Positions 22,184 to 31,344 of a stretch of 40,611 bases of DNA are shown one piece after another (the stretch's first letter is position 1; every line of letters begins with the position of its first letter). The notes under the pieces were generated by a model. The model saw only the letters and a program-made list of their open reading frames with translations. It had not been told where the DNA came from and made no database searches. Where the stretch lies: assembly GCA_019695335.1 (NCBI GenBank), contig JAIBAF010000029.1, positions 1 to 40,611 on the forward strand. Direction: 5' to 3'. A program made the translations under genes and the position numbers. Origin of the DNA: a bacterium. GTDB lineage: Bacteria; CLD3; SB21.

Positions 22184-22216
22184 AAAAAAGCTCAGGGATG
22201 TCTCTGAGCTTTTTTG
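22184..22216. terminator. bidirectional terminator, copy 1
   Basis: AAAAAAGCTCAG / CTGAGCTTTTTT, a 12-bp perfect stem with an 8-base loop, with A/T runs on both sides so that it can stop transcripts of the outer-membrane protein gene (plus) and of the GIY-YIG/tRNA remnant (minus). It is part of the 77-bp direct repeat. Confidence 0.88.
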
Positions 22217-22260
22217 CGGAGAAGGGGAGATTCGAACTCCCGGTACAGCTTTACAACCGT
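22184..22260 (-). repeat. 77-bp perfect direct repeat, copy 1 (terminator plus 3' third of tRNA-Ser)
   Basis: Identical over 77 bases to 22563-22639 (offset 379). It contains the terminator hairpin, the tRNA 3' acceptor strand, T arm and variable-arm region up to ACGGTTG. Together the copies flank the GIY-YIG gene, as expected of a duplication made when the gene inserted. Confidence 0.95.
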
Positions 22261-22287
22261 CGTGCGCCTGCGGCGCATGCCTTAAGC
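22217..22287 (-). pseudogene. tRNA-Ser(GCU) 3' remnant with replaced anticodon arm
   Basis: On the minus strand it keeps the D-loop segment GCTTAAGGCA and everything from ACGGTTG to the discriminator G of the intact tRNA-Ser at 22596-22686. The anticodon arm is replaced by TGCGCC-GCA-GGCGCA (22277-22263), a perfect 6-bp hairpin. The 5' acceptor strand is missing: the sequence before the D-loop is the 3' end of the GIY-YIG gene. It cannot form a tRNA. Confidence 0.85.
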
Positions 22288-22548
22288 TCTGCGCCTTCTT
22301 GAAAAATGCGGATAATTTTTATCCAACCATTCACGGCCAATGCCTAACTTTAAATATTTCTCACGCGAGGCCGCTTCGGTTTTTGCTTCAAATGATTCTG
22401 TAAAAATTATAATCCAAGGTCTTCCGTTTTTAGTTGATTGGTTGCCACCTGAGTTATGTTGCGATACACGGCGATCTATATTATCGGTCATGCCGATATA
22501 TCGCTTATTAAGCTTATCACTCCATAAAACATATACAAAATGCTTCAT
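22282..22548 (-). CDS. GIY-YIG endonuclease-domain protein inserted at tRNA-Ser
   Basis: 88 residues. GIY-YIG fold motifs: FVYVLWS then RYIGMT (in place of GIY...YIG), the Arg at 26/27 (DRRVSQH), and the metal-binding Glu63 in SREKYLK. This is the small UvrC/URI-like nuclease group. The C-terminus HFSRRRRA is encoded by sequence running into the tRNA remnant, and the TAA stop is part of the D-loop GCTTAAGGCA. Only 14 bases separate the terminator copy 2 from the ATG, with no clear ribosome site, so expression would need read-through from tRNA-Ser. A homing-type element is the most likely explanation. Confidence 0.88.
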   Translation of the reverse strand: MKHFVYVLWSDKLNKRYIGMTDNIDRRVSQHNSGGNQSTKNGRPWIIIFTESFEAKTEAASREKYLKLGIGREWLDKNYPHFSRRRRA

Positions 22549-22562
22549 AATTTTTTTAAATA

Positions 22563-22595
22563 AAAAAAGCTCAGGGATGTCTCTGAGCTTTTTTG
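22563..22595. terminator. bidirectional terminator, copy 2 (tRNA-Ser(GCU))
   Basis: Second copy of the 12-bp stem AAAAAAGCTCAG / CTGAGCTTTTTT, directly after the 3' end of the intact tRNA-Ser. It stands between that tRNA and the GIY-YIG gene. Confidence 0.88.
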
Positions 22596-22639
22596 CGGAG
22601 AAGGGGAGATTCGAACTCCCGGTACAGCTTTACAACCGT
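22563..22639 (-). repeat. 77-bp perfect direct repeat, copy 2 (within and after intact tRNA-Ser)
   Basis: Same sequence as 22184-22260. This copy belongs to the intact tRNA-Ser(GCU) and its terminator, so it is probably the source or the regenerated target. Confidence 0.95.
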
Positions 22640-22686
22640 ACGGCGGTTTAGCAAACCGCTGCCTTAAGCCACTCGGCCACCTCTCC
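22596..22686 (-). tRNA. tRNA-Ser (anticodon GCU)
   Basis: 91 bases: acceptor GGAGAGG/CTTCTCC (one G-U), anticodon stem GCGGT/ACCGC with loop TTGCTAA (anticodon GCT), long variable arm GTACGGTTGTAAAGCTGTAC as expected of a class II tRNA, T arm GGGAGTTCGAATCTCCC, discriminator G, no encoded CCA. This is the only complete copy of the three related units in the locus. Confidence 0.96.
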
Positions 22687-22727
22687 AAAAACTTTGATAT
22701 ATTTAAAAGAACATTTTCTAATTAAAA

Positions 22728-22795
22728 CCGACGGCGGTTTAGTCCCGGCCTATCGGGACTGCCTTAAGTTCCGATTTTATCGGAACCACCTCTCC
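22728..22795 (-). pseudogene. tRNA-Ser(GCU) 5' remnant with two replaced arms
   Basis: On the minus strand: GGAGAGGTGG (as in the intact tRNA), then TTCCGAT-AAA-ATCGGAA in place of the D-arm 5' part, then CTTAAGGCA (conserved), then GTCCCG-ATAGGC-CGGGAC in place of most of the anticodon arm, then CTAAACCGCCGTCGGTT, which again matches the intact gene except for one missing A. The variable arm, T arm and 3' acceptor strand are absent. The 5' flank also resembles that of the intact tRNA (GTTCTT..AAATATA). Confidence 0.8.
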
Positions 22796-27739: not shown

Positions 27740-30700
27740 TCATTTGATCAGCAACATTTTTTTCATTTTGACGCCGCTGATCGTTTCAAGGCGATAAATG
27801 TATACGCCGCTGGCAACCTGTACTCCCGACTCATTCTTGCCGTTCCAGTCAACCTGGTGATATCCTGCCGACCGAGCCTCATTAACCAGCTCTTTGATTT
27901 TTTGTCCCAAAATATTATAGACCGTCAAGACTACGCGGCCTTCTTCCGGCAATCCAAAACGAATCGCAGTTGTCGGATTGAATGGATTAGGATAATTCTG
28001 TGATAATTCGAGGGATTTTGGTAAAACAACGTGATCGGGATTGTAGAAAGCTGCTATTTCCCCGACTTTGGTAATCTTGGCGTTTACTTGCATTTGATAG
28101 CCTTCGCCGCCCAGGTACATCCACGAACTGTTTTCTTCAGAATAATGGTAGAGACCTATTTTACGTTCATCGAAATCGGTGTAATTGGCTTTTAATTTAG
28201 CAACCTCATTTTGGTCATAATAGCTGCGAAGATTCATAAATTGACCTTCACTGAAATCAGCAGTTGTAAAGAACTGGAATTTGTTGCCAATTTGAGTCCA
28301 CTCAGAGGTCGCATTGGTTTTAGATAATCCTTTGTTTGCCGGAACGGCTGCAAGCATGACAAAACCAGTTTGAGGAATTGAATGGGTAGCGCTGAGCTCT
28401 ATGGTAGAGTATTTCATAGAAAAATAATTTTTACTGAAAGCACTGACAGTATAGGTTCGTGTCTGAGTGGCAGAATTACCGGCTAAGTCTTTCCCAATCA
28501 TGGTGATAGTCAGAATACCTTCAGCCAACCGATAAGTAGTCGAGAAGAGTTGATTACTCGTACCGATGTGTGAAGGAATTACATCAATAGTATTGTCGAG
28601 TGCGAGCCTACCCGTTAATTCTGATAAATCTTCGTCGGAACTAGTAATGATGTCGACGTAGTCCTGAGCGACCGTGCTGCGCAGAAGCTTGATGGACAGA
28701 GTCGGTACCTGGTGATCTACCTCTATGCCTTGTCCTTGGAGAATGATGGAGAATTCGCCACTCGAGGTAAGTAAAACCAGGGTGTCTTTAAATTGACCGG
28801 TTATATTTGGTTCGAAATCGAATGTCAGAGAAATAGTGTCAACACCAAGTTTGAGTGTATCCGGCAGAATCAGCAATGGTTGCATTTGAAACGGATCACT
28901 CAGTGCAGAAGCCGTTGAATTTAAGCGGATATTATCGCTTTGGCTGGCTAAACGAACTGTTTGCGAAGTGCTACTACCAATTTCAACGTTACCAAAATCG
29001 ATTGTGGACGACGGTAAAATTGAAAGTGAGCCGGTTAGAGATATAAATCCAACGGGTGTCGAAAAAGCTGAAGTGTTTTGGGCGCTATCCTGTAGTGCCG
29101 TGAGAACGTTTCCTGCTGAAAAATTGACCTGTTTGGTCCAATTTCCAGCGTCATCGGCAACGGTCGTACCCAGTAAAAAACGCCCCTGATTCGAAGGTAC
29201 CGAATCGGCATAGATTTGCACGAATGCATTGGGAGCGGAGTAGCCTGATACCGTGCCATCGACGGTCACATTGGTAATTCTCGGAGGAGCGATATTTTTT
29301 TGCGCTCCGTTTTGGAAGACTGTGCCGCCCAAAGAATTCTTGAAAATGGCGTTCTGATAAAATATCGAACTATCGGTCGCCGGGCCGTCGACAAGAATGC
29401 CGTAACCGTCATTAAATGCTATCCGGTTGGAGATTGCACTATCGATACGGGATCGTTTGCTGATGAATATACCGGAACGTACTCCTGAACCGTTAGGAAT
29501 GGGTAAGTTGCCGGTAGCGTCCGCGCCGATAATGTTGTCTTCAACGCGTACCAGGGCGCCGTTTTCGAGAAGCAATCCTTCCTGCGTATTTCCGGAAATC
29601 AGATTTTTTGATACGGCAATTGCTTTGGATGAATCGATCACTATGCCGATGTTATTACGTAACGCCGTAGTACCGGTTGGATTGGTTCCGATAAAATTTC
29701 CTGAAACCATATTCGAATCCGATTGGACTATCCATATTCCATGTACGACCGTGTTACCGGAAATAATATTACGACCGGATGCAAGACCATTTCCGATTTT
29801 ATTATGTTTGGGCCCTCTTTGCAAAATGATGCCCGGTTGATTGTTGGGGATAGCAGCGGTGCCGTTAGCATCCGTTCCTATATAATTGCCAAGGATAGCG
29901 TTATGTGTAACGCTCCTGTTATATAATGAAATGCCATTTACGGCATTACCGGAAATGACGTTTCTTCCTTCCGGTACCGTGTCGCCAATGGTGTTAAAAC
30001 AGACGCTGTCTATTCCGTTACTTGACAATAAAATGCCATAAAACGAATTGCCAAGCGACGCTAACCCGTCGGCTTTTAAGCCAATATAGTTGCCGGAAAT
30101 TTTGTTATGCGTTCCGCTTTGAATAACGATCCCATCGTGGTTACCGGATATGACATTTCGGCTTCCCGGAGTGGTTCCTCCAATCAGGCAGAACTTGCTT
30201 AACAGCATTCTCACTCCGGAATTTGAGTTACCGAAATTGATGGATCCGGTTATATCCGTGCCGATAAAGTTTCCCTGAACAATAGCCGAATCAGAGGCGT
30301 CGAGATAAATACCGCTTGCATTGTTTCCGGCAATAATATTACCTGCGCCTGGTAATCCGATGATGGTATTTTTCCCGCCGGAGTACACACCATGGCCACC
30401 AATGTTTGGTACCATAGCCGTTCCGTTCGCATTCAGGCCAATGATATTATTGAGGACGGAAAGGTTAGTACCGCTATTATTAATAGCCGTGCCGCTGTTA
30501 CCGGAAATGACATTACGCCCTGCCGGTGTTGTCCATCCGATGACGTTATTGTTTGTACCAGCCAGCAACTCGATTCCACCGCCGCCATTAGGCAGGGCTA
30601 GTGTTCCGGTTGCATTAAGACCGATATAATTACCAACGATGAGACAACTATCGACATTATTATTTATCACAATGCCTGAAGACAAGTTTCCAGAAATAAT

Positions 30701-31231
30701 ATTACGGCCATTGGCGTTGAAAGGGTCTCCGATGACGATATTACCAGCTCCACCGCCGTAGATAAAAATACCCATGCCATTTGCAGTAATTGAATTCGCA
30801 CTGAGACCATCAAGACTGGTGCCGATGTAGCAGCCGATAATTTTGTCTTTTCTCGATCCTTCGATAAAAACACCAGTGGAGCTGAAACCTCGGATATTCA
30901 AGTATGCGAGTACACAATTTGAACCGCGAACCACAATACCCTGTGCCACAGCAAAGTCATTCACGATTGAAACTTCCGGTTTAAGGGCGCCTGAAACTGT
31001 GCCTATAATGACTGTTCCGTTGTCTGTCAGTTCAAGCGATGAAAAAAGCGGAAATGTGTCTGAGATAGCAAATATGATCGTGTCTGGTCCGACATTGAGA
31101 TTACACTGTTTGATCGCCCACCGCAATGTGTTGGGGATATTCTCATCATCCTGCGTATTATCAACGGAAAATGTTCCAGCCCGTAAAGATACGGTTAAGA
31201 TAATGGTCAAAAGCATTACAAGTTTCTTCAT
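27740..31231 (-). CDS. giant secreted right-handed beta-helix protein with C-terminal sorting domain
   Basis: 1163 residues from the ATG at 31231, favoured over the ATG at 31240 because AAGGAG then has proper spacing and a signal peptide (MKKLVMLLTIILTVSLRAG) follows. Residues about 20-640 contain many repeats of the type GRNVISGN..GI and (GNYIG)T...G, i.e. a right-handed parallel beta-helix, often a polysaccharide-binding or surface adhesin fold. About 660-740 is a Big/Ig-like domain, about 745-850 a HYDIN/ASPM-like domain (FGNVEIGSS), later another Ig-like region. The last about 85 residues, with NYPNPFNPTT and a final GVYIYRLE...MLLIK, form a type IX-like/FlgD sorting domain. Surface display via a T9SS is likely, but no T9SS gene lies in the window. 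Confidence 0.88.
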   Translation of the reverse strand: MKKLVMLLTIILTVSLRAGTFSVDNTQDDENIPNTLRWAIKQCNLNVGPDTIIFAISDTFPLFSSLELTDNGTVIIGTVSGALKPEVSIVNDFAVAQGIVVRGSNCVLAYLNIRGFSSTGVFIEGSRKDKIIGCYIGTSLDGLSANSITANGMGIFIYGGGAGNIVIGDPFNANGRNIISGNLSSGIVINNNVDSCLIVGNYIGLNATGTLALPNGGGGIELLAGTNNNVIGWTTPAGRNVISGNSGTAINNSGTNLSVLNNIIGLNANGTAMVPNIGGHGVYSGGKNTIIGLPGAGNIIAGNNASGIYLDASDSAIVQGNFIGTDITGSINFGNSNSGVRMLLSKFCLIGGTTPGSRNVISGNHDGIVIQSGTHNKISGNYIGLKADGLASLGNSFYGILLSSNGIDSVCFNTIGDTVPEGRNVISGNAVNGISLYNRSVTHNAILGNYIGTDANGTAAIPNNQPGIILQRGPKHNKIGNGLASGRNIISGNTVVHGIWIVQSDSNMVSGNFIGTNPTGTTALRNNIGIVIDSSKAIAVSKNLISGNTQEGLLLENGALVRVEDNIIGADATGNLPIPNGSGVRSGIFISKRSRIDSAISNRIAFNDGYGILVDGPATDSSIFYQNAIFKNSLGGTVFQNGAQKNIAPPRITNVTVDGTVSGYSAPNAFVQIYADSVPSNQGRFLLGTTVADDAGNWTKQVNFSAGNVLTALQDSAQNTSAFSTPVGFISLTGSLSILPSSTIDFGNVEIGSSTSQTVRLASQSDNIRLNSTASALSDPFQMQPLLILPDTLKLGVDTISLTFDFEPNITGQFKDTLVLLTSSGEFSIILQGQGIEVDHQVPTLSIKLLRSTVAQDYVDIITSSDEDLSELTGRLALDNTIDVIPSHIGTSNQLFSTTYRLAEGILTITMIGKDLAGNSATQTRTYTVSAFSKNYFSMKYSTIELSATHSIPQTGFVMLAAVPANKGLSKTNATSEWTQIGNKFQFFTTADFSEGQFMNLRSYYDQNEVAKLKANYTDFDERKIGLYHYSEENSSWMYLGGEGYQMQVNAKITKVGEIAAFYNPDHVVLPKSLELSQNYPNPFNPTTAIRFGLPEEGRVVLTVYNILGQKIKELVNEARSAGYHQVDWNGKNESGVQVASGVYIYRLETISGVKMKKMLLIK

Positions 31232-31344
31232 GAAGCACATGCTCCTTTATGGTTAAATCAATAAGTGAATAAACTGGGGAAGGTAGGGAAGAGGGCACAA
31301 CTACCCATTGTTTTCAAGCACTAAAATAAAAATGCTTCATCATG

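Follow-up and report, generated by a model that had tools for sequence, protein, structure and literature searches.

A tRNA-Ser(GCU) locus arranged around a very small GIY-YIG nuclease gene, probably a homing-type element residing at bacterial tRNA genes

In the stretch of DNA analysed here (40,611 nucleotides, hereafter the window), a gene for a very small GIY-YIG nuclease stands between an intact tRNA-Ser(GCU) gene and a partial copy of it, and this arrangement is widespread. The architecture, its recurrence, the same-strand orientation, its presence or absence at corresponding sites, the tracking of tRNA isotype, the active site, and the enrichment and fixed position of hairpins are all read directly from the sequences. 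We think it probable that a very small free-standing element of the homing type, which resides at a tRNA gene and leaves an intact tRNA, has a copy inserted in the window. This reading accounts for the conserved active site, the empty sites and the partial copies of tRNA genes as well as for the same-strand linkage and the isotype tracking.

On the minus strand, with an mrp/ApbC-like gene and tRNA-Ser(UGA) upstream, the locus runs from a 5' remnant through the intact tRNA-Ser(GCU), a terminator and the GIY-YIG gene to a 3' remnant and a second copy of the terminator (Table 1). An earlier note had described three units of tRNA-Ser(GCU) around a GIY-YIG gene, and ARAGORN, Rfam, Pfam and alignment bear this out: alignment to the intact tRNA gives a score of 96.5 for the 3' remnant and, for the weaker 5' remnant, one of 41.5, compared with a maximum of 34 among shuffles (n = 2000). 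The perfect 77-bp repeat at offset 379 that it reported was recovered with the same coordinates and contents and is the longest exact direct repeat, and the nuclease stop codon TAA (22284-22282) does lie within the D-loop segment GCTTAAGGCA of the 3' remnant. The intact tRNA is uninterrupted according to ARAGORN, identical in G001 and 96-98% identical in other family members. Duplication of the upstream flank, when the 5' remnant is compared with the intact tRNA, is weak and is equalled by 3.4% of shuffles. An assembly error, as far as a single assembled contig allows this to be judged, is unlikely because the arrangement recurs in independent genomes, isolates among them. Elsewhere in the window (27740-31240, minus strand) lies a 1166-aa open reading frame that by eye appears repetitive and parallel-helix-like at its N-terminus and secretion-sorting-domain-like at its C-terminus.

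Table 1. Features of the tRNA-Ser(GCU) locus, in coordinates of the window
Feature	Position	Strand	Basis
5' remnant of tRNA-Ser(GCU)	22726..22795	-	no nuclease gene between remnant and intact tRNA
Hairpin TTCCGAT-AAA-ATCGGAA, replacing D-arm bases of 5' remnant	22769..22785	-	sequence, alignment
Hairpin TCCCG-ATAGGC-CGGGA, anticodon arm of 5' remnant	22743..22758	-	sequence, alignment
Intact tRNA-Ser(GCU)	22595..22686	-	ARAGORN; Rfam RF00005, 55 bits
77-bp exact repeat, copy 1 (tRNA 3' part + terminator)	22563..22639	-	
Terminator-like hairpin and T run 3' of intact tRNA, copy 1	22563..22594	-	sequence
GIY-YIG nuclease gene, 88 aa	22282..22548	-	ORF; Pfam PF01541 E=2e-16
3' remnant of tRNA-Ser(GCU)	22216..22287	-	alignments; 22216-22260 match at 100%
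Hairpin TGCGCC-GCA-GGCGCA, replacing anticodon arm of 3' remnant	22263..22277	-	sequence, alignment
77-bp exact repeat, copy 2	22184..22260	-	
Terminator, copy 2	22184..22215	-	inside 77-bp exact repeat

The remnants of the window are not plain truncations: short GC-rich hairpins stand where tRNA arm bases would. In the 5' remnant, TTCCGATAAAATCGGAA and TCCCGATAGGCCGGGA occupy the places of D-arm and anticodon-arm bases, and in the 3' remnant TGCGCCGCAGGCGCA occupies that of the anticodon arm. TCCCGAT-type hairpins, counted across the genome to which the window belongs, were few, and none lay in another tRNA remnant; in the clade of the window (G000:C70, G001, G002) the hairpin is located at the T-loop. 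As a separate observation, locus L053 of G001 (about 2690-2780) carries a 5' remnant of tRNA-Ser(UGA) with the hairpin TGAGCCTTAGGCTCA, followed by the intact tRNA-Ser(UGA); this hairpin-bearing partial duplication concerns another isotype and has no adjoining nuclease gene.

Small GIY-YIG genes, in the window's family and elsewhere, also adjoin tRNA-Ser(GGA), -Pro, -Ala, -Asn, -Asp and -Gly, most of them with remnants. A survey with a hand-composed consensus GIY-YIG protein, free of tRNA-derived residues, returned 80 loci from Bacteroidota, Ignavibacteriota, Fidelibacterota, Patescibacteria, Planctomycetota and others, including one Woesearchaeote; since the query was a composed consensus, these loci are biased to one subfamily and do not represent all small GIY-YIG proteins. 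A tRNA gene lies within 300 bp at 65 of the 80 loci, invariably on the strand of the nuclease gene, and at the remaining 15 none was detected within that distance. At least 48 of the 65 carry a partial copy of the same tRNA across the open reading frame. A separate sample of diverse genomes gave 17 tRNA-linked loci out of 29, all on the same strand and including the 13 best matches, as against 1 of 26, on the opposite strand, for a sister GIY-YIG subfamily. Two forms occur, either 5' remnant, gene and intact tRNA, or intact tRNA, gene and 3' remnant; 5' rather than 3' remnants are found in about half of cases (41 type D, 34 type U). Where the 5' remnant comes first, the stop codon of the gene falls inside the intact tRNA at many loci.

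Several observations accompany the survey. C-terminal tails such as SGSSVG, seen at many loci (for example L077, L090 and L122), are the translated tRNA 5' end GGT AGC TCA GTT GGA TAG, and tRNA-derived tails of this kind could mislead annotation. At L042 (G006:C602) the GIY-YIG gene and a tRNA-Ala 3' remnant with a hairpin occur in tandem copies, the second nuclease copy being broken by in-frame stops. Tandem arrays of tRNA-like units in which a hairpin forms the anticodon arm are present at L094 (867-1476, period 107 bp) and L130 (1113-1360, period 92 bp), directly upstream of a tRNA-linked GIY-YIG gene and with no nuclease gene between the units.

Is the arrangement mobile? The earlier note had allowed that it might be ancestral and conserved in all relatives, and the corresponding loci speak otherwise. 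After mrp, the family member G003 has two tRNA-Ser genes and lacks the nuclease gene; G001, of the same genus, has a decayed GIY-YIG gene and then a remnant of the T-arm in which a hairpin follows GTTC; and G002, which is built differently, has an intact GIY-YIG gene with a T-arm remnant of the kind seen in G001. Across Flavobacterium, a syntenic tRNA-Arg(UCG) locus is occupied in 6 of 121 genomes, for instance occupied in G096 and empty in G050. The two copies of the repeat are identical in the window, so that donor and native parts are indistinguishable there, and the copies in G096 are nearly so. Up to the T-arm, the tRNA-Ser of G002 resembles that of the family; the T-arm itself and the terminator, which directly precede the nuclease gene, are unlike their counterparts in G000, G001, G003, G004 and G005. 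Terminators related to GCTCAGA...CTGAGC/CTGGGC follow the tRNA in G001, G003, G004 and G005 and not in G002. Had the tRNA 3' end been co-converted along with the nuclease gene, such a pattern would be expected, and we take it as no more than suggestive because the differing bases are few (a few substitutions and the terminator) and lie on a 3-kb contig.

How might such an element spread? We envision that the GIY-YIG nuclease would cut an uninvaded tRNA gene in one loop, and that repair from an occupied locus would bring the nuclease gene and a piece of tRNA sequence into the cut gene. The host would be left with one intact, possibly chimeric, tRNA and a truncated copy across the nuclease gene, and the hairpin of the truncated copy would sit at the cleavage site, spoil it and travel with the element. 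What we infer from the comparisons is cleavage and its position, spread by way of repair, and what the hairpin does. The proposal of the earlier note, a homing-type element with the tRNA restored on one side, fits all the comparative evidence, from empty and decayed sites to the 6 of 121 Flavobacterium genomes; the cutting that it implies keeps the standing of a conjecture drawn from sequence. The generality of the arrangement, the isotype tracking and the remnant hairpins go beyond what that note contained. GIY-YIG homing enzymes with site specificity usually have a DNA-binding domain, and it counts against the homing-type reading that the window protein is a bare GIY-YIG domain in which a DNA-binding domain is not recognisable. 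Moreover, the restored intact tRNA should remain a target, so that limited self-cutting needs an extra explanation, and the 15 of 80 loci at which no tRNA gene was detected within 300 bp also count against the reading.

The hairpins speak for this scenario. A perfect hairpin other than a terminator was found in 39 of 63 remnant-side windows, where shuffles would lead one to expect 2.9; of 998 control windows, 36 had one. In about 20 tRNA-Arg/Met remnants from Bacteroidota, Ignavibacteriota and Chlorobiota, a palindrome of about 20 bp near CCTGCCTGCCGGCAGGCAGG is inserted at the same nucleotide, exactly after GG(A/T)TA in the D-loop, with no tRNA bases lost; in G096 a second palindrome stands exactly in the T-loop. 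Many remnants are already truncated, so spoiled tRNA folding would be an insufficient reason for a hairpin, and we infer that it acts as DNA, for instance by spoiling a cut site. Conceivably, the element is of the homing type and the hairpins are unrelated palindromic repeats that pile up in neutral tRNA remnants. This reading, compatible with the core of the one we favour, would suit the hairpins that replace tRNA bases instead of interrupting them, as well as the occurrence of CCTGCCTGCCGGCAGGCAGG, in few copies each, in ordinary intergenic DNA of Bacteroidota genomes (L154-L157), whereby the Flavobacterial palindrome is not exclusive to the GIY-YIG element; it sits poorly with a single nucleotide position shared by about 20 remnants across three phyla, and we consider it a serious possibility, if on balance an unlikely one. 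Rather doubtful, in our estimation, is the most far-reaching version of the homing-type reading, namely that many bacterial phyla, and one archaeal lineage or more, harbour a distinct class of minimal mobile elements (about 0.3-0.4 kb). In these, a bare GIY-YIG protein, specialised by clade on tRNA isotypes, would cut a tRNA loop and a palindrome, perhaps itself mobilised by the nuclease, would mark the element's own cut site.

The protein tree tracks tRNA isotype, also within phyla, and does not track host phylum. Isotype requires 28 changes on the tree, compared with 45.3 for shuffled labels (minimum 39, n = 1000), and 18 changes against a minimum of 22 when labels are shuffled within phylum; host phylum requires 18, compared with 20.8 for shuffled labels (minimum 18). 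As a sign of specificity for a cognate site, this tracking is indirect, and single branches of the tree are not to be trusted because it rests on few columns and has many open forks. These results weigh against the idea that the locus arose by local tandem duplication and decay, with the nuclease gene placed between tRNA copies by chance or by a recombination hot spot at tRNA ends, without targeting. Such a history is in keeping with a duplicated part that takes in the terminator and is homogenised within a genome, and with the hairpin-bearing arrays at L094 and L130. It would predict neither that the gene and the tRNA always share a strand, nor that the linkage is confined to one subfamily (65 of 80 against 1 of 26), nor that isotype follows the protein tree even inside a phylum, and we regard it as improbable.

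The window protein consists of a PF01541 domain (residues 2-67 of 88) and retains the catalytic Y6, Y17, R27 and E63; among the tRNA-linked proteins the two tyrosines and the arginine are present in 75 of 75 and the glutamate in 74 of 75, with one gap. Alternatively, the nuclease might act on the tRNA itself, as an RNase toxin or a processing enzyme, with the intact tRNA beside it serving as a resistant copy or a rescue copy. The match between protein clade and tRNA isotype and the position of hairpins at tRNA loops would agree with such an activity. A toxin module would predict neither truncated tRNA copies nor empty and occupied sites, and the nearest solved structures are the UPF0213 proteins 1ywl and 1zg2 and, weakly, SLX1, a DNA structure-specific nuclease, with weak family matches to homing endonucleases; a tRNA-acting enzyme is thus hard to credit. 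Integrases classically act at the 3' ends of tRNA genes, and integration there usually shows as a duplicated 3' part along with a restored tRNA. The 77-bp repeat could accordingly be read as attL/attR of an integrase-driven island remnant, which is very improbable given that the sole open reading frame between the repeats is the GIY-YIG gene, with no integrase, and that about half of cases carry 5' remnants. A group I intron with a homing endonuclease was rejected as well, for the window has no match to a group I family at the Rfam gathering threshold, and nothing interrupts the intact tRNA.

If the homing-type reading is true, very many bacteria have in their tRNA genes a parasite that ranks among the smallest elements of this type and that gets round the difficulty of an essential insertion site because an intact copy of the gene stays behind. 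It would also explain many partial tRNA copies, as well as GIY-YIG C-termini that are translated tRNA 5' ends, and would make it testable how an 80-residue GIY-YIG domain selects one tRNA isotype and what hairpins do at a fixed tRNA nucleotide.

Our search of the open-access literature found no description of tRNA-linked GIY-YIG elements of bacterial chromosomes, and a 2006 survey of GIY-YIG proteins, as far as its available text goes, brings up tRNA solely in connection with a methyltransferase fusion and in its references. Small UPF0213/YhbQ-like (SLX1-like) GIY-YIG proteins have the same domain and the same size, whereas the other small GIY-YIG subfamily tested is, unlike that of the window, not linked to tRNA genes (1 of 26). 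REP palindromes with RAYT transposases likewise are short palindromes that accompany a nuclease-type gene; here, by contrast, no RAYT was seen and the palindrome occurs in only a few copies per genome.

The closest known systems are phage SegB and the mobile open reading frames (mORFs) of fungal mitochondria. SegB of phages T4 and T6 is a free-standing GIY-YIG homing endonuclease of the tRNA region that cuts inside tRNA genes and is tied to tandem tRNA amplification and to microhomology that the 3' end of the nuclease gene shares with the tRNA 5' end (PMC13096335; PMC2988022). Its motif RAWTSGAAC (PMC13096335) has the reverse complement GTTCSAWTY, which is the T-loop, where the clade of the window has its hairpin. 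Both nucleases are GIY-YIG enzymes, free-standing and adjoining tRNA genes. Unlike phage SegB, the tRNA-linked genes belong to bacterial chromosomes, with only two relatives in viral contigs, and they combine a bare domain of 80-90 aa with a partial tRNA on the other side of the gene, hairpins in that remnant and clades that follow isotype. We do not place the window protein in the SegB family, since it has no SegB-type region in addition to its GIY-YIG domain (residues 2-67 of the 88 aa). In the mobile open reading frames of Allomyces and Glomus (at atp6, atp9, cox2 and nad3), an endonuclease gene brings a replacement 3' end of its target, and the native end is left downstream (PMC3630166). 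Replacement of the target's end by a foreign-looking one, for which G002 is suggestive, and a left-over native remnant of the target gene would be common to both; those mitochondrial elements concern protein genes and are mostly LAGLIDADG, whereas the elements considered here concern bacterial tRNA genes, occur in forms with a 5' and with a 3' remnant, and carry hairpins.
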